From Leptospiraceae bacterium (lineage in GTDB: Bacteria > Spirochaetota > Leptospiria > Leptospirales > Leptonemataceae): a stretch of 64,000 nt of DNA. The stretch's first letter is position 1. Each line of letters starts with the position of its first letter. Location of the stretch: NCBI GenBank assembly GCA_026418015.1, contig JAOACE010000008.1, forward strand, positions 62,001 to 126,000, written 5' to 3'. Under the pieces are notes generated by a model that saw only the letters and a list, made by a program, of their open reading frames with translations, had not been told where the DNA came from and searched no databases. A program made the translations under genes and the position numbers. This document shows, piece by piece, positions 5,279 through 15,049 of the stretch.

Positions 5279-6088
5279 ATGTTTTTAGAAAATCATTTAA
5301 TTCAAATTGTATTAATAACAATATTATTGTGTTTTTTAGTAATGAGTTTATTATTCATACTGGGAAAAATTTTTAATAATATGGCAATAGTTGATTTTGG
5401 CTGGAGTATTAATTTTAGTTTAATAGCTTTTTATTTGATACATACAACTAAAGAAATATCAAAAATCAGTTTGATATTTTATATAATGGTTATTATATGG
5501 AGCTTTCGATTAGCATTTTATTTATTATTTACAAGAATCCTTTTTAAACCCGAAGAAGGAAGATATCTTAAATTAAGAGAAAAATGGAAAAAACATTTAG
5601 ATGTAAAATTTTTTATATTTTTTCAATTTCAGGCAATTACAAATGTTATATTAAGTGTTCCATTATTTTTAACTTTATATCAAAATAAGGAAATTCAAAT
5701 AAACCATTATATAGCAATAATAATATTTATTATTGGTTTTATAGGAGAATCTATTGCAGATTTTCATTTATATTATTTTAAAAAAAATCCAAACAATAAA
5801 AATAAAACATTAAAAACAGGTTTATGGAAATATTCCCGACATCCAAATTATTTTTTTGAGCTTGTTATATGGTTTTCTTTTGGATTATACCATATCAACT
5901 TAGAATATGGTTATGTAGCCTTTGTATCATTTTTTATATTACTATTTTTTATCTTGAAAATTACTGGTATCCCTGCAACAGAAGAACAGAATCTTTCGAG
6001 TAAAGGAGAAGATTATAAAAATTATATAGAAAACACTTCGCCATTAATACCATTACCACATAAATTATATAAAAAACTAAAAAAATAA
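5279..6088 (+). CDS. DUF1295 membrane protein (steroid reductase/ICMT-like fold)
   Basis: A 269-residue integral membrane protein with about six hydrophobic helices. The C-terminal half carries the DUF1295 signature: GLWKYSRHPNYFFELVIWFSFG (roughly residues 180-202) and the later ITGIPATEEQN segment. The family is related to 3-oxo-5-alpha-steroid 4-dehydrogenases and isoprenylcysteine methyltransferases and is thought to act on membrane lipids. It starts an operon with a cyclopropane-synthase-like methyltransferase 16 bases downstream. In proteobacterial light or singlet-oxygen regulons DUF1295 genes keep similar company. A lipid reductase role fits, but the substrate is unknown. Confidence 0.85.
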   Translation: MFLENHLIQIVLITILLCFLVMSLLFILGKIFNNMAIVDFGWSINFSLIAFYLIHTTKEISKISLIFYIMVIIWSFRLAFYLLFTRILFKPEEGRYLKLREKWKKHLDVKFFIFFQFQAITNVILSVPLFLTLYQNKEIQINHYIAIIIFIIGFIGESIADFHLYYFKKNPNNKNKTLKTGLWKYSRHPNYFFELVIWFSFGLYHINLEYGYVAFVSFFILLFFILKITGIPATEEQNLSSKGEDYKNYIENTSPLIPLPHKLYKKLKK

Positions 6089-6104: not shown

Positions 6105-7124
6105 ATGCAAGATACCATATTAAAAACGGGATTGATTCCAGATTTTGCTTTAAGAATAATTATTAATAAATTAAATAAAAAACGATTAAAAACAGAAGAT
6201 GAAAAGGATGTAGAAAAAAATCAAAAAAAAATAATGGATAAAGTTCAGGAGCTAAAACAATCTCCTATTGCTTTAACACCAGATTTAGCTAATGAACAAC
6301 ATTATGAACTTCCTTTTGAATATTTTGATCTAGTATTAGGAAAATATAAAAAATATAGTTGTTGCTATTTTTATGAAAATGAGAACTTAGATCAAGCTGA
6401 AAAAAATATGTTAAATTTATATATAGAACGAGCAGAGATAAAAAATGGGCACAGCATTTTAGATTTAGGATGTGGATGGGGTTCTTTTTCTTTATATTTA
6501 GCAGAACGTTTTCCTAATTCTAAAATTGTAGGAGTTTCCAATTCCCGTCTACAAAAAGAATATATAGAAAAACAAATAAAAAAAAGAAAAATAAAAAATT
6601 TAAAGATTATAAATGCTGATATGAATAATTTTAATATTAAACAAAAATTTGATCGAGTTGTTTCTATTGAGATGTTTGAACATATGAGAAATTATGAATT
6701 ATTACTTAAAAAAATTTCTCAATTTTTAAAAAAAGATGGTCTATTATTTGTTCATATTTTTGTACATAAACAATTTTGTTATTATTACGAAGTAAAAGAT
6801 GAAACGGATTGGATGTCAAAATACTTTTTTACTAATGGTATTATGCCTTCTGCTAATTTATTACATTATTTTCAAGAACATTTAGTAATTGAAAAAGAAT
6901 GGCATGTTAATGGAATCCATTATTATAAAACATCTATGGAATGGTTAAAAAATCATAAAAAATATAAAAAAGAAATCTTAGATATTTTTAAAAATTATTA
7001 TAATGATCCATTATTATGGTATTATCGATGGTATATCTTTTATCTTGCGGTTGCAGAATTTTTTAAAACCAATCAGGGAAATGAATGGTTTGTAGCTCAT
7101 TATTTATTTAAGAAAAAATCGTAA
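6105..7124 (+). CDS. Cyclopropane-synthase-family SAM methyltransferase (CNMT-like)
   Basis: A 339-residue S-adenosylmethionine methyltransferase of the COG2230 superfamily. Motif I is ILDLGCGWGSF (118-128). MFEHM (190-194) carries the conserved glutamate. C86 in YSCCYF and H217 in LFVHIF align with the catalytic-site Cys and His of E. coli Cfa. The stretch DWMSKYFFTNGIMPS and a WxxNGxHY-like segment are typical of the coclaurine-N-methyltransferase-like branch. GGAGAT precedes the ATG. It is co-transcribed with the DUF1295 gene and its 3' end overlaps the photolyase 3' end by 17 bases. A phospholipid acyl chain is the expected substrate, by inference from the cluster. Confidence 0.85.
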   Translation: MQDTILKTGLIPDFALRIIINKLNKKRLKTEDEKDVEKNQKKIMDKVQELKQSPIALTPDLANEQHYELPFEYFDLVLGKYKKYSCCYFYENENLDQAEKNMLNLYIERAEIKNGHSILDLGCGWGSFSLYLAERFPNSKIVGVSNSRLQKEYIEKQIKKRKIKNLKIINADMNNFNIKQKFDRVVSIEMFEHMRNYELLLKKISQFLKKDGLLFVHIFVHKQFCYYYEVKDETDWMSKYFFTNGIMPSANLLHYFQEHLVIEKEWHVNGIHYYKTSMEWLKNHKKYKKEILDIFKNYYNDPLLWYYRWYIFYLAVAEFFKTNQGNEWFVAHYLFKKKS

Positions 7125-8505
7125 AAAGTTTTATAAATTCTTCTTTTTGTTTCTTATGATCAACCATAGGTTTAGGATATTTTTTTGTTCCTAATTCTGG
7201 AATCCATTTTTTACAGTATTTTGATTCTGGATCAAATTTCTTTTGTTGTAAAACAGGATTAAAAATGCGAAAATATGGGGCAGCATCTACACCTGTCCCG
7301 CTACACCATTGCCAGTTACCTACGTTAGAAGCTAATTCAAAATCCATTAATTTTAAAGCGAAATATCGTTCTCCATATTTCCAATCAATATGTAAGTCCT
7401 TTACAAGAAAATTGGCACAAATCATTCGAACACGATTATGCATATATCCAGTTTGATTTAATTCTCTCATTCCTGCATCTACAAGAGGATAACCTGTTAA
7501 ACCTTTACACCATAATTCAAAATCTTTTTTAGCATTTATGTCCTGATCTGGATTTCTCCAGTATTTTCTTAGATATTGAAATTTCTTATTCCATTCTAAA
7601 TGTTCGCTATAAGGATAATGATATAAAATATACATATAAAATTCTCTCCATATAAGTTCTTCTATAAATGTTTTTGATTCAAAATAAGATTTTTTTATTA
7701 TATCGCGAATACTAACTAAACCAAATCTTAAATAAACACTTAAATGAGATGTTCCTTTTTTTAAATAAGGAAAATCACGTGTACTTTTATAATCTTTTAA
7801 AAAAATTTGATCTAAATGAATTTCTGGCATGATATAATAAGTTTTTTTAAAATTCATTTTATTCAAATCTGGTTCAGGAAATTTATTAACAAAGTAATCT
7901 AAATTTTTATATATATTTTTTAATTTAGAAAATAATTTTATAAAATGATTTTTATATTTTGAAATCATTTCTAAAGAAATAAAATTTTTTATATATTTTT
8001 TAGAGGGATATTCTAATAATATATGTATATCAAATTTTTTAAACCAGGCTTTTTTATATTGAGAATAAACTTTATAAGGTTCTTCCTTTTGATTTAATAA
8101 TTCCTCTTTTTCGAAAATAACTTGATCTTTAAATGAATAAAAACCTATATTTTTCTTTTTACAAAGACTTTGAATTTTATTGTCTCTTTCTATTGCATAA
8201 GGTTCATAATCATGATTAAGATAAACAGAAGAAATTGTTAACGTTTGAAATAATAATAAAAAAATTTCTTCTGGTTTGCCATATAAAATTAACAAAGAAG
8301 AATTATAACTTTCAATTTCTCGTTTTAGAGATATAATTCTATCAAATAAAAAAGAAACACGTCTATCTTCTTCTGGCAAATTTTTTAAAATATAATCATC
8401 AAAAATAAAAATAGGAATTGTAGTTTGATTTTGCTTTAAAGCTTGATAGAGTCCATGATTATCATCTAAACGTAAATCTCTTCTGAACCAAAATATCTGA
8501 AACAT
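7108..8505 (-). CDS. phr: Class I deoxyribodipyrimidine photolyase
   Basis: Photolyase splits UV-induced cyclobutane pyrimidine dimers using blue light. The 465-residue protein starts FWFRRDLRLDDNHGL, the N-terminal antenna-domain signature. It continues through FIEELIWREFYMYIL and carries the FAD-binding block WCKGLTGYPLVDAGMREL, MHNRVRM, and NVGNWQWCSGTGVDAAPYFR near residues 330-420. The tryptophans of the electron-transfer chain are visible. These features favour a CPD photolyase over a cryptochrome. Its promoter is TTGACA-N16-TATTAT with the ATG six bases beyond. It shares its control region with the CarH-like regulator, so light induction is likely. Confidence 0.94.
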   Translation of the reverse strand: MFQIFWFRRDLRLDDNHGLYQALKQNQTTIPIFIFDDYILKNLPEEDRRVSFLFDRIISLKREIESYNSSLLILYGKPEEIFLLLFQTLTISSVYLNHDYEPYAIERDNKIQSLCKKKNIGFYSFKDQVIFEKEELLNQKEEPYKVYSQYKKAWFKKFDIHILLEYPSKKYIKNFISLEMISKYKNHFIKLFSKLKNIYKNLDYFVNKFPEPDLNKMNFKKTYYIMPEIHLDQIFLKDYKSTRDFPYLKKGTSHLSVYLRFGLVSIRDIIKKSYFESKTFIEELIWREFYMYILYHYPYSEHLEWNKKFQYLRKYWRNPDQDINAKKDFELWCKGLTGYPLVDAGMRELNQTGYMHNRVRMICANFLVKDLHIDWKYGERYFALKLMDFELASNVGNWQWCSGTGVDAAPYFRIFNPVLQQKKFDPESKYCKKWIPELGTKKYPKPMVDHKKQKEEFIKLFTIFS

Positions 8506-8511
8506 TATTAC

Positions 8512-8594
8512 ATAATAATTTATTGTTTTTTTTTGTCAAATATTGTCTATGGTTAATAAAAAAGTTTTGACATATTTTTCACTTTGATTATATT
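8512..8594. promoter_or_regulatory. Divergent phr / carH-like promoters with light-island operator 2
   Basis: On the minus strand, phr has -35 TTGACA (8534-8539), 16 bases, and -10 TATTAT (8512-8517), six bases before its ATG. On the plus strand, the regulator gene has -35 TTGACA (8567-8572), 16 bases, and -10 TATATT (8589-8594), five bases before its ATG. Between them lies TGTC (8544-8547), 21 bases, GACA (8569-8572). An extra TGTC at 8534, ten bases (one helical turn) to the left, overlaps the phr -35. A regulator on this site would cover the regulator's own -35 and abut that of phr. Confidence 0.7.
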
Positions 8595-8599
8595 GTATA

Positions 8600-9397
8600 A
8601 TGAAAATGAAATATTTAATTAAAGATTTATCTAATATTACAGGATTAAGTCCAGCAAGAATTAGAAAATGGCAGGAACGTTATCATATATTAAATCCTAA
8701 AAAAAAAGGAAAAAATGGTTATTATTATTACGATAATGAAGATTTAAAAATATTATTATTTTTTAAAAATGAAATAAAAAAAGGAAAAACACCAAAAGAA
8801 ATTTTACAGATTCCCCGAAAAGATATATTATCCAAAGAAATCTATTTCAATGAATTTAATTCAAAAGAAATGCAATTTATTCAATATATCTCTGAATATA
8901 ATTTTAAAGAAATAAAAAATTATTTAGATAAAATTTATAAAACGAAACATTTTTTAAAATGGTTACAAGAAATTCATAATTTAATCATATTAACTGGTAA
9001 AGCATGGGAAAAGAATTTTATAACCATTTCCGAAGAACATACATTTTCCCGATGGATCTATAATTATATTTCCAGTAAAATTGTAAAATTATATCTTTAT
9101 AAAGAACCTATCTGGTTAGTAGCTGTATTTCCCGGTGATCCACATGAATTAGGAGCATTACTACATTTTGCAAAACTACAATATTATAAAATTCCAGCAA
9201 AATTTGTAGGAATGCTTCCAGAAAAAGAATTACTAAATGAAATTAAACAAAATAACTATAAAATAGTTAGTATTAGTATTGTAATTCCTCAGAAAGAGGA
9301 AGCATTGGAAAAATTAAAGAATAAAATACAAAAAATTTCTAATACAGATATTCTTTTTGGTGGATATGGATATAGACTAATGCTACAACAAAATTAA
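8600..9397 (+). CDS. CarH/LitR-type B12-dependent light-sensing MerR regulator
   Basis: A 265-residue transcription factor. Residues 4-75 form a MerR-type winged helix (YLIKDLSNITGLSPARIRKWQERY). Residues 90-160 form the helical cap with the diagnostic W-x9-EH motif (W136, E146, H147). Residues 172-262 form a cobalamin-binding domain with DPHELG (D180, H182, G185), where H182 would be the axial cobalt ligand. In characterised CarH, adenosylcobalamin holds a DNA-bound repressor tetramer in the dark, and light breaks the Co-C bond and releases DNA. All key residues are present, so photosensing is predicted. It heads an operon running to about 13944 and lies next to a TGTC-N21-GACA operator. Confidence 0.88.
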   Translation: MKMKYLIKDLSNITGLSPARIRKWQERYHILNPKKKGKNGYYYYDNEDLKILLFFKNEIKKGKTPKEILQIPRKDILSKEIYFNEFNSKEMQFIQYISEYNFKEIKNYLDKIYKTKHFLKWLQEIHNLIILTGKAWEKNFITISEEHTFSRWIYNYISSKIVKLYLYKEPIWLVAVFPGDPHELGALLHFAKLQYYKIPAKFVGMLPEKELLNEIKQNNYKIVSISIVIPQKEEALEKLKNKIQKISNTDILFGGYGYRLMLQQN

Positions 9398-9414: not shown

Positions 9415-10716
9415 ATGAAACCCAAAATAGCTATAATTGGTAGTGGAATATCAGGTATTGCATGTGCTTATTATTTAAGTAAAGACTTTGATATTACCCT
9501 ATTCGAAAAAGAAAATTATTTAGGTGGTCATACAAATACTATAGAAATTTTACGAGATAATAAAATTATACCAGTAGATACAGGATTTATTGTATTTAAT
9601 TTACATACGTATCCTAATCTATTAAATTTTTTTAATGAATTAGAAGTAGAATTTATAGAATCAAATATGAGTTTTTCTGTCTGGAACCAAAATAAAAGTT
9701 TATATTATGCAGGAACTAATATCAATACCATTTTTGCACAGAGAAAAAATTTTTTCAATATTCGATTTTATAAATTATTAAAAGAAATTTTACGATTTAA
9801 TAAATTCATTCATATATACTATAACAAAGAAATTTCTTATTCAATATCTATAAATGACTTCTTAAAAGAATATAAATTTGACAATTTTTTTAGTGAAAAC
9901 TATTTAATCCCTATGTGTTCTGCTATATGGTCAACAGATCCACAAAAAATATTAGATTTTCCCTTAAAAACCTTAGTGCATTTTTTTAAAAATCATGGAC
10001 TTGCCAGTGTGAATGGACATTATCAGTGGTATACTGTAAAAAATGGCTCTTATAATTATATTAAAAAAGTATTAAAAAAATCATCATTTAAATACTATTT
10101 AAATGAACCTGTATTAGAAGTAATACGAAATAAAGAGAAAAATAACATTACAATTTTAACAAAAAATAGAAAACAAGAATTTGATTTTGCAATTATAGCA
10201 ACACATTCACCAACAGCATTAAAAATTTTAAAAGATGCGACTAAAAAAGAAAAAGAAATTTTAAGTAAATTTCATTATCAAAAAAACATTGCTATTTTAC
10301 ATGAAGATAATAATATCATGTGTTATGATAAAAAAATCTGGTCATCCTGGAACTATAAAATAGGAAAGGATTTTAAAACTTCTACTACCTATTATATGAA
10401 AAAACTACAACCATGGATAGATTTTGATTTATTTGTTTCCATAAATGAATATGAAAATATCAATAATAAAAAAATTTATAAAATCATTGAATATGAACAT
10501 CCTGTATTCGATACAGAAGCTATTAAATATCAGGATAGGTTATATGAATTAAATAATAATGGTTTAGTTTATTTCTGTGGTGCATACTTTCGTTATGGTT
10601 TCCATGAAGATGGTATTTTATCTTCTTTAGAAGTTGTAAATAAAATTAAAAATAATGTTTTCATAGAAAAAAGTAGATATGAATTCCCAAATATACGAAA
10701 TAACCATTATACATAA
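9415..10716 (+). CDS. FAD-dependent amine oxidase-family protein (COG2907 type)
   Basis: A 433-residue flavoprotein. The N-terminus holds the dinucleotide fold IAIIGSGISGIACAYYL and then FEKENYLGGHTNT, with the amine-oxidase-family GG motif. Near the end, FCGAYFRYGFHEDG closes the FAD site. COG2907 proteins sit beside DUF1365 and cyclopropane-synthase-like genes in light or singlet-oxygen regulons of proteobacteria. There, members are implicated in modifying methylated acyl chains, for example toward furan fatty acids. AAGGAAA precedes the ATG. The 3' end overlaps the next gene by 38 bases, which suggests coupled translation. The exact reaction is not known. Confidence 0.87.
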   Translation: MKPKIAIIGSGISGIACAYYLSKDFDITLFEKENYLGGHTNTIEILRDNKIIPVDTGFIVFNLHTYPNLLNFFNELEVEFIESNMSFSVWNQNKSLYYAGTNINTIFAQRKNFFNIRFYKLLKEILRFNKFIHIYYNKEISYSISINDFLKEYKFDNFFSENYLIPMCSAIWSTDPQKILDFPLKTLVHFFKNHGLASVNGHYQWYTVKNGSYNYIKKVLKKSSFKYYLNEPVLEVIRNKEKNNITILTKNRKQEFDFAIIATHSPTALKILKDATKKEKEILSKFHYQKNIAILHEDNNIMCYDKKIWSSWNYKIGKDFKTSTTYYMKKLQPWIDFDLFVSINEYENINNKKIYKIIEYEHPVFDTEAIKYQDRLYELNNNGLVYFCGAYFRYGFHEDGILSSLEVVNKIKNNVFIEKSRYEFPNIRNNHYT

Positions 10717-11458
10717 AAGAGAGTATATAAAGCAGCATTTATTAAAATATAAAATTTTTATGTTTTATATTGATTTAGATGAAATTGATTTTTTAAATAA
10801 TATTCCCCTTTTGTCTTATAATAAATTTAATCTTTATTCTCTTTATGATAAAGATCATTTTTATTTTTATGATAATTATTCTTCCATCAAAGAAAATCTA
10901 TTGCTCTATATTAAAGAAAATCAATTAGAAATTCCTGATAAAGTATTTTTATTAACCAATTTAAGATTTCTTGGGTATGTTTTTAATCCAGTAAGTTTTT
11001 ATTATTGTTTTAAAAATAATCAATTAATTTATATTATCTCTGAAGTAAATAATACATTCCATGAACAAAAACCCATTCTTGTTCCAATAAAAGAAACACA
11101 AAAAAGAAATAATCTTTATTACTATAAAACTAAAAAAGATTTTTATGTTTCTCCTTTTGTAAAATATGATACAGAACTTCTATTTCGATTTAATATACCT
11201 GAGGATAAATTATTAATGCAGGTGGACTCTGGATATTTTAGTGAAAAAAAAGAATATCATGTAAAAGCATCTATGTCTGGAATAAAAAAACCATTAAATA
11301 CAAAAACCATCTTAATTGAAACATTAAAATTTCCTTTCGTAACTTTTAAAATTATAATTGGTATACATTGGCATGCACTATTATTATGGATGAAAAAAAT
11401 TCCCTATTTTAAAAAAAATGAAGTTGATAACCTATTAAAAAATCAGAAGCAAAAATAA
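10679..11458 (+). CDS. DUF1365 family protein
   Basis: A 259-residue protein with the DUF1365 hallmarks: a basic start (IIHKREYIKQHLLKYKIFMFYIDLDEI), LRFLGYVFNPVSFYYCF around residues 97-113, VNNTFHEQ, and VSPFVKYD. The function of the family is unknown. It almost always lies between an FAD amine oxidase and a cyclopropane-synthase-like gene, as here, and is assumed to act in the same lipid pathway. The ATG lies inside the preceding gene. The Cfa-like gene follows after 17 bases. Confidence 0.88.
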   Translation: MNSQIYEITIIHKREYIKQHLLKYKIFMFYIDLDEIDFLNNIPLLSYNKFNLYSLYDKDHFYFYDNYSSIKENLLLYIKENQLEIPDKVFLLTNLRFLGYVFNPVSFYYCFKNNQLIYIISEVNNTFHEQKPILVPIKETQKRNNLYYYKTKKDFYVSPFVKYDTELLFRFNIPEDKLLMQVDSGYFSEKKEYHVKASMSGIKKPLNTKTILIETLKFPFVTFKIIIGIHWHALLLWMKKIPYFKKNEVDNLLKNQKQK

Positions 11459-11475: not shown

Positions 11476-12780
11476 ATGGAACTACAATTACAAAAGAAAA
11501 AAGAAATTCAAAATATAAGACCTAAGAATTTATATCAATATTTATTCATTAAAGCATTAAAAAATATAACTAATGGAATTCTATATATTTTCTTAAATGA
11601 GCAAGAATATATTAAAATTGGAAAGGAAAATTATAAAATACCCGCTTATATTTATGTAAAAGATGAAAATTTCTTTAAATATTGTATATTATTTGGTGAA
11701 ATTGGTTTTGCAGAAGCTTTTATTCTTGGATATTTCGAAACACCAGATTTATACAGATTATTAGAATGGTTTGTAGATAATTCAGAAAATAATCCAGGTT
11801 CCAGCTATTCCAAAACAAAACAATTTTTTATTAATATTTTAGGATTTTATAATAAAATCATACATTTATTTAGACCTAATACTATAAAAATTGCTAAGGA
11901 AAATATTTCCAAACATTACGATTTATCCAATGAATTATATAAACTAATGTTAGATTCTACTATGACCTATTCCTCTGGTATTTTTTCTCCTAATTTAAAT
12001 AATTTAACAGATGCCCAAATAGAAAAATACGAAAGAATTTGTATAAAATTAAATTTAAAACCCGGATTAAGAGTTCTGGAAATTGGTTCTGGATGGGGCG
12101 GATTTGCTAAATATATTGCAGAAAATTATGACTGTAAAGTTGATACTATTACTATATCAAAAGAACAATATGAATATACAAAAAATCTTATCAACCAATA
12201 TCAGTTAAATGATAAAATTAATGTACATTTCTTAGATTACCGACAACTCAGCACAAGTGTTTTTGGTAAATATGATAGAATTGTATCCATAGAAATGGCA
12301 GAAGCATTAGGACACAAATATTTAGATATTTATTTTAAAAAAATTGCAGAAATGCTAAAAGATGATGGGATTGTCGTTTTACAATACATTAATTTTCCAG
12401 AATCTCATTACAAAAATTATCTAAAATCTGTTGATTTTATAAAAAAACATATCTTCCCTGGTGGAGAACTTTTATCTCATTTAGAAGTATTAAAATCACT
12501 ACATAGAGTTTCTGAGTTATGTATATATGATTTAGAAAGTTTTGGTATTAGTTATGCAAAAACTTTAAAACTATGGAAGTATAATTTTATAAATAATATA
12601 GATAAAATAAAACAACTCAATTTTGATGATTATTTTATAAGAAAATGGATTTACTACCTGACCTATTGTGAAGTAGGATTCCGTTCCCGTTATATAAATG
12701 TATCACAGGTTGTATTATCTAAAGCAAGAAATATTAATATTATTGATTCTACAGAATTTAAATTAAGGAAAAAAACATGA
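11476..12780 (+). CDS. Cfa-type fatty-acid SAM methyltransferase, His-to-Gln variant
   Basis: A 434-residue protein of the cyclopropane-fatty-acyl-phospholipid synthase family, with full N-terminal lipid domain and motif I VLEIGSGWGGF (200-210). The conserved Glu is at 276 (MAEALG). The residue matching E. coli Cfa His266 is Gln303 (VVLQYIN), and the one matching Cys139 is Ser167. IFPGGELLS follows. Gln at this place is, from memory, usual in the branch that methylates unsaturated acyl chains without closing a cyclopropane ring. A 10-methyl(ene) product is therefore a reasonable guess. AAGGAGG lies just before the ATG, and the stop overlaps the next start (ATGA). Confidence 0.88.
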   Translation: MELQLQKKKEIQNIRPKNLYQYLFIKALKNITNGILYIFLNEQEYIKIGKENYKIPAYIYVKDENFFKYCILFGEIGFAEAFILGYFETPDLYRLLEWFVDNSENNPGSSYSKTKQFFINILGFYNKIIHLFRPNTIKIAKENISKHYDLSNELYKLMLDSTMTYSSGIFSPNLNNLTDAQIEKYERICIKLNLKPGLRVLEIGSGWGGFAKYIAENYDCKVDTITISKEQYEYTKNLINQYQLNDKINVHFLDYRQLSTSVFGKYDRIVSIEMAEALGHKYLDIYFKKIAEMLKDDGIVVLQYINFPESHYKNYLKSVDFIKKHIFPGGELLSHLEVLKSLHRVSELCIYDLESFGISYAKTLKLWKYNFINNIDKIKQLNFDDYFIRKWIYYLTYCEVGFRSRYINVSQVVLSKARNINIIDSTEFKLRKKT

Positions 12781-13487
12781 AAACAAAATTTAAAATTATT
12801 TTATTATTGATGATTTTAATTATGGGAAATCAAATTTTTTCTCAGCAGAGAACATTTATTGGTTATGCTTACGACATAAATACAAATAAACTACTTTATA
12901 CAGAAAATCATACAGAATTTTATTACAATAATAAACATATTAAAACTATTCTCATATATAGAGATAAAGAAAATAAAAAAATTGCAGAAAAGATTTCGGA
13001 TTATACAAAAAATAGCCAGATACCATTATTTCATTTTAAAGATTTCCGAAATGGATATGAAGAAGGAAGTGTGTATGAGAATAATCAATTTAAAATTTAT
13101 TTTATAGAAAATAATAAAAAAAATATTTCTAAATCATTTCCTTTTAAGGAAAATATTGTATTGGATTCTGGATTCCATAAATTTATACAAAATCATTTTG
13201 ATGAATTGCTTAATAACAAAACATTAACAATAGAATTTGCTGTACCAAGTCGTTTAACTCTGATTTCTTTTAAAGTTTATAAAGTAAAAGAATATCAGAA
13301 AGATAATAAAAAAATTATACGATTTATATTCGAAGTTGATAATTTTGTATTTCGCTTACTCGTAAAACCAATTTATATAGATTATGATAAAGAATCAAAG
13401 GAACTATTACAATATACAGGAATTTCCAATCTCTATGATGAAAATAATAAAGCCTATAATGTTAAAATTATATTTAAATACAATTAA
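12777..13487 (+). CDS. Exported protein of unknown function in the lipid operon
   Basis: A 236-residue protein that I do not recognise. The first 22 residues are a signal peptide (MKTKFKIILLLMILIMGNQIFSQ). The rest is rich in Lys, Asn and Tyr with repeated short beta-strand-like stretches (for example TLTIEFAVPSRLTLISFKVYKV), ending NVKIIFKYN, so it may be a periplasmic beta-fold protein. Its start overlaps the stop of the methyltransferase gene by four bases, so translation is coupled. The position in the operon suggests a role in handling or placing the modified lipid, but that is inference. Confidence 0.75.
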   Translation: MKTKFKIILLLMILIMGNQIFSQQRTFIGYAYDINTNKLLYTENHTEFYYNNKHIKTILIYRDKENKKIAEKISDYTKNSQIPLFHFKDFRNGYEEGSVYENNQFKIYFIENNKKNISKSFPFKENIVLDSGFHKFIQNHFDELLNNKTLTIEFAVPSRLTLISFKVYKVKEYQKDNKKIIRFIFEVDNFVFRLLVKPIYIDYDKESKELLQYTGISNLYDENNKAYNVKIIFKYN

Positions 13488-13497
13488 GAATACATAT

Positions 13498-13944
13498 ATG
13501 ATATTAGCAAAAGAACAATTTATAAAAGCTTCAATAGAAGAAGTATGGGATTTTTTTAGTAACCCTAAGAATTTAAAAATTATTACACCTCCTTATTTAG
13601 GATTTGATATTATAAGCAATTTACCAGAAAAAATGTACGAAGGACTTATAATTGAATATCGTGTTAAACCATTTTTGGGAATACCTTTAAAATGGATTTC
13701 AGAAATTACACATATTAAAGAAAAAGAATATTTTATAGATGAACAAAAAATTGGTCCTTATAAATTATGGCACCATACTCATTGTTTTTTTCCTCAAAAA
13801 AATGGAGTTTTAATGAAAGATATTGTATATTATGAACTTCCTTTTTCTCCTTTTTCGAATTTCTTTTTATTTATAGTAAAAGAAAAATTAAAAGATATTT
13901 TTGATTATCGTTTTAACAGAATTGAAGAAATTTTTAATCAATAG
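13498..13944 (+). CDS. SRPBCC (START-like) ligand-binding protein
   Basis: A 148-residue protein with the SRPBCC pattern: an opening strand AKEQFIKASIEEVWDFFSNPKNL, then ITPPYLGFDI, LKWISEITHIKEKEYFIDEQKIGPYKLWHHTHCF, and a long C-terminal helix (FLFIVKEKLKDIFDYRFNRIEEIF). Such folds enclose a hydrophobic ligand; in light-regulon operons they are common beside DUF1365 and Cfa-like genes. The start is set at ATG 13498, eleven bases after the previous stop, because this removes a long non-conserved overlap and begins right at the first strand. It is the last gene before operator 3. Confidence 0.8.
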   Translation: MILAKEQFIKASIEEVWDFFSNPKNLKIITPPYLGFDIISNLPEKMYEGLIIEYRVKPFLGIPLKWISEITHIKEKEYFIDEQKIGPYKLWHHTHCFFPQKNGVLMKDIVYYELPFSPFSNFFLFIVKEKLKDIFDYRFNRIEEIFNQ

Positions 13945-13973
13945 TGTCAAAACTATACAAAAAAGTATAGACA
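13945..13973 (+). promoter_or_regulatory. Light-island operator 3, upstream of the BLUF cyclase
   Basis: TGTC at 13945-13948 and GACA at 13970-13973 are 21 bases apart. The first base follows the stop codon of the SRPBCC gene directly. Inside lies a second dyad, CTATAC-AAAAAA-GTATAG (13953-13970). GACA ends 30 bases before the ATG of the photoactivated cyclase, the same distance as in operators 1 and 4. The -35 would be TAGACA; no good -10 box is visible, so this promoter may need an activator or be weak. Confidence 0.6.
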
Positions 13974-14002
13974 TAAAATGTTATATATATTTCATTTATT
14001 TT

Positions 14003-15049
14003 ATGGATAAATTAAAACGTGTAAGCTATATTAGTAAATTTGCTAAACCACTTTCCAAAGAAGATATAGAAAAAATTGCAGAAATTTCGCAGAAAAATAA
14101 TTCCAGAGAGAAATTAACAGGTGTATTATTTACTTATAAAAATATATTTTATCAAATTATAGAAGGTCCAGAGAGAAATTTAGATAAACGATTAAATATT
14201 ATTTTTAATGATAATAGACACAAAGATATTTTTGTTTTAAAAGTAGAAAAAAATGTAGAAAAAAGAAAATTTTCGGAATGGTTTATGAAAACAGTCATAT
14301 TAGATGAATCACAAGATTATCTGATCCAGCCTTTAACTGATATGTTAAATACTATTACAGATAGCTGGATTTTACTGGAAAAATATGTTTCAGATGTTAT
14401 ATTAAAAACGATTCAAAAAGGAGAAAATCCCTTAGATTACAAACCACAATTTAAAGATAAAATAATAATATTTGGTGATATATTTGCTTCGACAACGTTT
14501 ACAGAAATTCTCAATACTAATCAAGTTTATGATCTATTTGAAATATTTTTTGAAATTACTATTGATACTATTAATAAATATGGTGGAAATGTTTCAAAAC
14601 TGTTAGGTGATGGTTTCTTAGGAAGTTTCTCTCAAGACTATTTAAATAATGCACTAAATGCAGTCATAGAAATATCGAAACAATTAAAAACATTGAGAAA
14701 TAGTTATCCAGAAAATCATCCATACCATTATTTATATGCTGGTTTCGGTATGAGTAAAGGAAAAATATTAGAAGGAAATATTGGTTCTAAAAATAAAAAA
14801 GATTATACCTATATTGGTTATCCAGTAAATCTTGCTGCAAAAATTCAAGCAATTACGAGAAAAACAAATTATTTCTTAATTTTTGACGAATCCTTATTAG
14901 ATCAAAAAATATTTTATGAATTTAAAAAAATTGGAAAGTACGTAACAAAAAATCAAGTAGAAATTCAATTATTTACTTTAAATCATAATGAATTAAAATC
15001 AAATTTAAACTATAATAATTTAATACAAAAAATTAAACAATTAAAATAA
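14003..15049 (+). CDS. BLUF-domain photoactivated adenylyl cyclase
   Basis: A 348-residue protein colinear with Beggiatoa bPAC. Residues 5-95 are a BLUF flavin domain: Y9, N32 and Q51 match bPAC Y7, N30 and Q49, and W93 also aligns. Residues 105-145 are the coupling helices. Residues 150-345 are a class III cyclase with metal aspartates D159 and D203, and adenine-selecting K199 and T269. The transition-state Asn is present (N276), but the partner Arg (bPAC R278) is Lys280. Blue light should raise cAMP. The start is set at ATG 14003 because it matches bPAC's length and has the same distance from its operator as the other island genes. TpPAC and LiPAC of Leptospirales are known relatives. Confidence 0.92.
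   Translation: MDKLKRVSYISKFAKPLSKEDIEKIAEISQKNNSREKLTGVLFTYKNIFYQIIEGPERNLDKRLNIIFNDNRHKDIFVLKVEKNVEKRKFSEWFMKTVILDESQDYLIQPLTDMLNTITDSWILLEKYVSDVILKTIQKGENPLDYKPQFKDKIIIFGDIFASTTFTEILNTNQVYDLFEIFFEITIDTINKYGGNVSKLLGDGFLGSFSQDYLNNALNAVIEISKQLKTLRNSYPENHPYHYLYAGFGMSKGKILEGNIGSKNKKDYTYIGYPVNLAAKIQAITRKTNYFLIFDESLLDQKIFYEFKKIGKYVTKNQVEIQLFTLNHNELKSNLNYNNLIQKIKQLK

Follow-up and report, generated by a model that had tools for sequence, protein, structure and literature searches.

Introduction

Experimental proof of the furan fatty acid (FuFA) enzymes UfaM, UfaD, UfaO, and FufM comes from Cereibacter sphaeroides and Rhodopseudomonas palustris (PMC7380195). UfaO carries a DUF1365 domain, and FufM methylates 9M5-FuFA in vitro and leaves 18:1(11Z) unmethylated; the dimethyl acid was made by FufM alone, in R. 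sphaeroides as well as in vitro (PMC7380195). In E. coli Cfa, the bicarbonate is held by the side chains of Glu239, His266, and Tyr317 (PMC11387697). With regard to control, a ufaM gene beside a LitR/CarH gene is light-induced 25- to 33-fold in Pseudomonas mendocina (PMC9758184). Our limited literature search found no link between ufaM and spirochaetes.

We analysed a window (one whole stretch of DNA, 64,000 nucleotides long) from a spirochaete genome of 2.9 Mb in 28 contigs. Another genome of its class (G032) has a second contig of 25,287 bases, whose first 15,000 bases match the plasmid of Turneriella parva DSM 21527 at 100%, and the window is assigned to the Turneriella/Leptospira class accordingly. 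As with the proven UfaM (RSP2144, RPA2569), the locus found there combines the CMAS fold and the A240/Q266 pair (E. coli Cfa numbering) with UfaD- and UfaO-type partners and a nearby photolyase, which adjoins UfaM in C. johrii; the spirochaete host and the presence of UfaM, UfaD, UfaO, and FufM types in a single locus set the window apart from those proven cases. These genes probably make up the whole dimethyl-FuFA pathway, which would place a complete set in the spirochaete class of Turneriella and Leptospira, beside light sensors.

Results and Discussion

Organization of the Gene Cluster

The features of the cluster are listed in Table 1; proteins are called by the first position of their gene. 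The order is DUF1295 and the FufM-type gene, then the photolyase on the opposite strand, and then the CarH-like gene, UfaD, UfaO, UfaM, the signal-peptide-like protein, the small protein, and the BLUF cyclase, this last run being all on one strand and closely spaced.

Table 1. Features of the cluster, in positions of the window.
Feature	Position	Strand	Residues or evidence
DUF1295 membrane protein (5-alpha-reductase-like superfamily)	5279..6088	+	PF06966, 194 bits; PF02544, 31 bits
FufM-type (coclaurine-N-methyltransferase-like) furan methylase	6105..7124	+	C86, E192, H193, H217, F219, Y273
DNA photolyase, divergent from the CarH-like gene	7108..8505	-	family match
MerR/CarH-like regulator, first gene of the UfaD-UfaO-UfaM run	8600..9397	+	Wx9EH and DxHxxG motifs
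FAD amine-oxidase-like protein, UfaD-type desaturase	9415..10716	+	PF01593, PF13450
DUF1365 protein, UfaO-type oxygenase	10679..11458	+	PF07103, 207 bits; synteny
UfaM-type fatty acyl phospholipid methyltransferase	11476..12780	+	S167, E276, A277, Q303, I305, Y360
Signal-peptide-like protein, conserved downstream of UfaM in relatives	12777..13487	+	conserved place
Small protein, conserved nearby in some relatives	13384..13944	+	gene order
BLUF photoactivated adenylyl cyclase	13901..15049	+	E 3e-77 to photoactivated adenylyl cyclases of solved structure

The CarH-UfaD-UfaO-UfaM order was found again in many relatives, and the UfaD-UfaO-UfaM run is conserved in Rhodopseudomonas, Rhizobium, Burkholderia, Acinetobacter, Legionella, Salinivibrio, Rhodococcus, and Streptomyces. 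The plasmid copies in Rhizobium, Burkholderia, and Acinetobacter are accompanied by DUF1295 and FufM. The 9415 protein has one match in each of six genomes of the Cereibacter clade and Rhodopseudomonas (227-281 bits, 35-36% identity), the FAD gene adjoins DUF1365 in the gene order of relatives, and the Rhodopseudomonas UfaM genes (L134, L141) lie beside both. The product of 12777-13487 had no match in Pfam or NCBIfam, and its AlphaFold model, computed with no alignment, had a pLDDT of 48, too poor for searching. The product of 13384-13944, for which Pfam gave no match, is by our assumption possibly SRPBCC-like.

Active Site Residues and the UfaM Signature

The 11476 protein (434 residues) matches the CMAS family PF02353 with 268 bits and is 33% identical to E. 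coli Cfa, its PDB match to that enzyme starting at residue 52; it has the family, the N-terminal domain, and the length (about 400-430 residues) of UfaM. By alignment with E. coli K-12 Cfa, E239, I268, and Y317 correspond to E276, I305, and Y360, whereas C139, H240, and H266 are replaced by S167, A277, and Q303. The two proteins have in common the fold and, of the bicarbonate ligands, Glu239 and Tyr317. The original prediction had called attention to Ser167 and Gln303, as well as to the retention of the corresponding Cys and His (C86, H217) in the 6105 protein, and in both respects it agrees with the alignment; the third changed site, H240 to Ala277, had been overlooked.

The distribution of these residues was followed in rows gathered, non-randomly, by UfaM, FufM, and CMAS queries. 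The UfaM type, defined by A240 and Q266, comprised 75 rows (three of them duplicates of other rows), and E239, I268, and Y317 were present in 75/75, as in the 11476 protein, this combination being a criterion derived in the present analysis. H240 was found in all 46 rows with H266, which were divided into 23 Cfa-type (C139, H240, I268) and 23 FufM-type (H240, F268). The A240/Q266 pair was absent from every Cfa-type row examined and common to the six UfaM of C. johrii, C. ovatus, Luteovulum azotoformans, and three Rhodopseudomonas genomes. Among the sequences examined, Ala240 together with Gln266 is a two-residue rule dividing UfaM from Cfa. Q266 was rejected as a marker on its own: in three further proteins (L130 from Turneriella, L153, and a second CMAS frame of L154) it is paired with H240, and the rule therefore requires A240 as well. 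Seven rows fell outside all types, namely, one fragment, three with Q266 and H240, and three with Asp at 266. The second CMAS frame of L154, a Rhodococcus erythropolis plasmid, lies at 6990-8330 in the interval between UfaM and DUF1295, is apparently frame-shifted, and is absent from the annotation of the record. CMAS-family proteins of related genomes (L133, L149, L150) have Gln139, Asp266, and Ser268.

Position 139 was Ser in 62, Ala in 7, and Cys in 6 of the UfaM-type rows, and Ser in 15, Cys in 6, Gly in 1, and Ala in 1 of the 23 FufM-type rows; the Ser that had been taken as a marker is not diagnostic. Neither could we sustain the idea that the change is typical of enzymes that methylate without closing a ring. 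The FufM types form no ring and yet keep H240 and H266, and BfaB, which makes 10-methylene chains, was chosen for its kept bicarbonate site (PMC7791843); the change is a signature of UfaM.

Placement of the 11476 Protein in the Family

As references we used orthologues from close relatives (C. johrii, L. azotoformans, C. ovatus, R. palustris XCP, R. palustris 2.1.18, and R. infernalis), which stand in for the proven RSP2144, RPA2569, RPA0924, and Halomonas UfaM and were identified from their gene order and the number of CMAS genes. The 11476 protein has a single match per genome in the two Cereibacter species and L. azotoformans and three in each Rhodopseudomonas, in agreement with the three methylase genes RPA2569, RPA3082, and RPA0924 described for R. 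palustris (PMC7380195). Against R. palustris XCP it gave 258 bits with UfaM (41% identity), 181 with the RPA3082-like protein, and 37 with FufM, and its identity to the alphaproteobacterial stand-in UfaMs is only 34-41%.

A first tree, of 81 rows, was built without the signature columns and after exclusion of four fragments and two near-copies; the UfaM types formed one group (SH-aLRT 99) and the FufM types another (100). A tree of 44 chosen rows, again without the signature columns, recovered the UfaM group with the 11476 protein inside it (97/88) and the FufM clade (100/100); neither tree holds BfaB, TmpB, or UfaA1 sequences. The 11476 protein sits with gammaproteobacterial proteins in a sister branch, outside the branch of the alphaproteobacterial UfaMs. 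When the UfaM rows on the side of the window were forced together with Cfa, away from the alphaproteobacterial UfaMs, the cost was 3.8 log units and the arrangement was not rejected by the AU test (p-AU 0.095). With that qualification, the 11476 protein groups with UfaM and apart from Cfa and FufM, and the claim that it is distinct from true Cfa was supported.

If the 11476 protein were a genuine Cfa whose base site has drifted and which still makes cyclopropane fatty acids, this would account for the retained E239, I268, and Y317, for the 33% identity to E. coli Cfa, and for the sister position of the UfaM and Cfa branches with the p-AU of 0.095. We consider it most improbable: the Glu239-His266-Tyr317 triad is broken by Gln303, the A240/Q266 pair of the UfaM-type rows occurs in zero Cfa-type rows, the genome has a separate Cfa-type paralogue in which the C, E, H, H, I, Y residues are all retained (L001, 1132-2421, contig C13), and UfaD- and UfaO-type genes adjoin 11476. 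The UfaM placement draws jointly on the tree, the signature, and the gene order, and by these 11476-12780 is in all likelihood a UfaM orthologue in a FuFA locus. What looks like a Cfa gene would very probably be the first enzyme of the FuFA pathway instead, which corrects the likely annotation of cyclopropane synthase.

Partner Genes and the Expected Product

The original prediction had left the product as a methyl-branched or a furan fatty acid. The FAD gene and DUF1365 lead us to expect the furan; with partners of UfaD and UfaO type, a plain methyl-branched end product of the BfaA/BfaB style is improbable. In the layouts of bfaAB and tmpBA, a CMAS gene adjoins a flavoprotein gene (PMC7791843), and by analogy the 11476 protein could be BfaB/TmsB- or TmpB-like, the neighbouring flavoprotein reducing a 10-methylene chain to a saturated methyl-branched acid. 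However, the bfaB genes were selected for a conserved bicarbonate site (PMC7791843), and that of the 11476 protein is altered; the neighbouring flavoprotein belongs to the amine-oxidase UfaD type, with its single match in each of the six reference genomes, and the DUF1365/UfaO gene in between would be left unexplained. We give this alternative very little credence, the distinction being drawn from site and partner.

The Second Methyltransferase

In the 6105 protein, C86, E192, H193, H217, and Y273 keep the residues of Cfa, and I268 is replaced by F219. Its best matches of solved structure are plant N-methyltransferases (coclaurine N-methyltransferase, E 3e-75). With the FufM of R. palustris XCP it shares 42% identity (281 bits), and the other two CMAS proteins of that genome gave 81 and 77 bits. 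Both the R. palustris FufM (RPA0924; XCP orthologue) and the 6105 protein have H240, H266, and F268, and both genes have DUF1295 directly upstream; the R. palustris genes for FufM and DUF1295 lie on a different contig from UfaD-UfaO-UfaM, whereas in the window 6105 lies about 5 kb from UfaM. Reading it as a catalytically intact Cfa was not supported, and it is assigned to the FufM/coclaurine-N-methyltransferase type instead; as the Cfa of the genome it was rejected, that part being taken by the paralogue at L001.

The plant matches would also fit a locus that ends at the monomethyl furan acid, with 11476 being UfaM-type and 6105 methylating another substrate, for example, a small amine as in the plant coclaurine N-methyltransferases. 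This is unlikely considering that the identity to Rhodopseudomonas FufM is far above that to the other CMAS of the same genome, that the FufM clade has full support in the 44-row tree, and that, of the 28 genomes with UfaM in a set of 41, 27 have FufM as well. The most plausible role of the 6105 product is the second methylation, that of the furan, and the earlier view that the two methyltransferases have different jobs is supported, one being of FufM and the other of UfaM type.

Proposed Pathway

Taking into account the residues, the family placement, the gene set, and the conserved gene order, we infer the following reactions. In Cfa, bicarbonate on Glu239, His266, and Tyr317 removes a proton of the new methyl and the ring closes. 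In the 11476 protein the imidazoles of H240 and H266 give way to Ala277 and Gln303, and the chain would lose a proton instead, leaving a methyl-branched trans-alkene; the predicted UfaM reaction is that of cis-vaccenate to 11Me-12t-18:1. UfaD (9415) would produce the conjugated diene, UfaO (10679) would add an O2-derived oxygen with closure of the furan, and FufM (6105), acting on 9M5-FuFA, would methylate it to the dimethyl FuFA, a singlet-oxygen scavenger. The UfaM of Halomonas in E. coli gave 11-MODCA, and cyclic fatty acids were present as well (PMC12089945); therefore UfaM may also form rings.

Light-Linked Neighbours

The 8600 regulator aligns with CarH over both domains, and its two motifs presumably bind cobalamin (B12). 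The CarH-like regulator, the photolyase, and the BLUF cyclase suggest a light-controlled use of the pathway. As in the window, the LitR/CarH-controlled ufaM cluster of Pseudomonas has a photolyase, an FAD oxidoreductase, and UfaM beside the LitR/CarH gene; FufM and DUF1295, both present in the window, are not among the genes named for it (PMC9758184). In C. sphaeroides the control is by sigma-E/ChrR (PMC6852236), as against a CarH-like regulator here. The BLUF cyclase ends the UfaM gene run, and some relatives have related BLUF proteins close to the locus (L042). The gap between the photolyase and the CarH-like gene (8506-8599) has two divergent TTGACA boxes, as if of divergent promoters. A repeat search for a common operator upstream of 5279 and 8600 found none that was convincing.

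DUF1295 as a Partner of FufM

DUF1295 was directly upstream of FufM, on the same strand and 42 to 207 bases off, in 40/40 plasmid records, these being the best 40 of 222 FufM matches, many of them close relatives yet spanning alpha-, beta-, and gammaproteobacteria. In Rhodopseudomonas, too, it adjoins FufM. Co-occurrence with UfaM and FufM, which was seen in two classes, was examined with tests that ignore kinship beyond a count by genus and with bit-score thresholds chosen after the score lists had been seen: in 41 genomes (that of the window and 40 relatives), UfaM was present in 28, one of which carries it in two pieces, and FufM and DUF1295 were present in 27 each, all 27 DUF1295 genomes having UfaM (Fisher p 8e-10); counted by genus in the same 41 genomes, 16 were with and 9 without, with no exceptions (p 5e-7). 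In 15 of the 27 DUF1295 genomes, the distance to FufM or UfaM was at most 12 kb. In 190 alphaproteobacteria, with the same limits on the tests, UfaM-type proteins were found in 24/25 DUF1295 genomes versus 98/190 overall (p 4e-7), and DUF1295 in 8/8 FufM genomes (p 3e-8), one of which is the R. palustris genome that supplied the query; 74 UfaM genomes were without DUF1295. Other DUF1295 records that we opened, from Phyllobacterium, Streptomyces, Legionella, and Rhodococcus, have the gene in a UfaD/UfaO locus.

In Chlamydomonas, genes induced by singlet oxygen in dependence on SAK1 include CFA1 (log2 5.92; mutant 1.16), CFA2 (4.05; 0.18), DUF1365 (3.50; 0.40), and DUF1295 (3.04; -0.16), and the CFA2 locus is named coclaurine N-methyltransferase in Table 9 of that paper, which is older than the pathway (PMC4067076). 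Our limited literature search found no connection between DUF1295 and furan fatty acids. Twenty-seven positions of DUF1295, RxPNY among them, are shared by 15 or all of 16 members. A phmmer search of the PDB gave no match up to E 0.01, and the AlphaFold model, computed with no alignment, had a pLDDT of 52, too poor for searching.

FuFAs react with singlet oxygen to give a dioxoene product. It is conceivable, and we propose it tentatively, that DUF1295 is a fifth member of the FuFA/singlet-oxygen set, a membrane NAD(P)H-dependent reductase acting on FuFAs or, most attractively, on their dioxoene after quenching. The reductase role is a guess from the superfamily (the PF02544 match) and the 27 conserved positions. 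Since FufM alone yields the dimethyl acid, DUF1295 may not be needed for methyl transfer. If the reductase reading is true, the full set of genes for making, using, and cleaning up FuFAs would be together in the window, under light control. The enzyme type of 11476 is a known one, here in a spirochaete; the DUF1295 lead is, as a prediction, well supported, and the function of this constant partner of FufM is directly testable in Rhodopseudomonas.

That DUF1295 is exclusive to FuFA loci was rejected because a Listeria stretch has it without any FuFA gene, and it may serve other lipids too. In that stretch (L. innocua plasmid, L193, 1269-5762), photolyase, DUF2177, DegV protein, and DUF1295 genes follow one another. 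An alpha/beta hydrolase gene adjoins DUF1295 in the FuFA loci of Phyllobacterium and Streptomyces (L191, L192).
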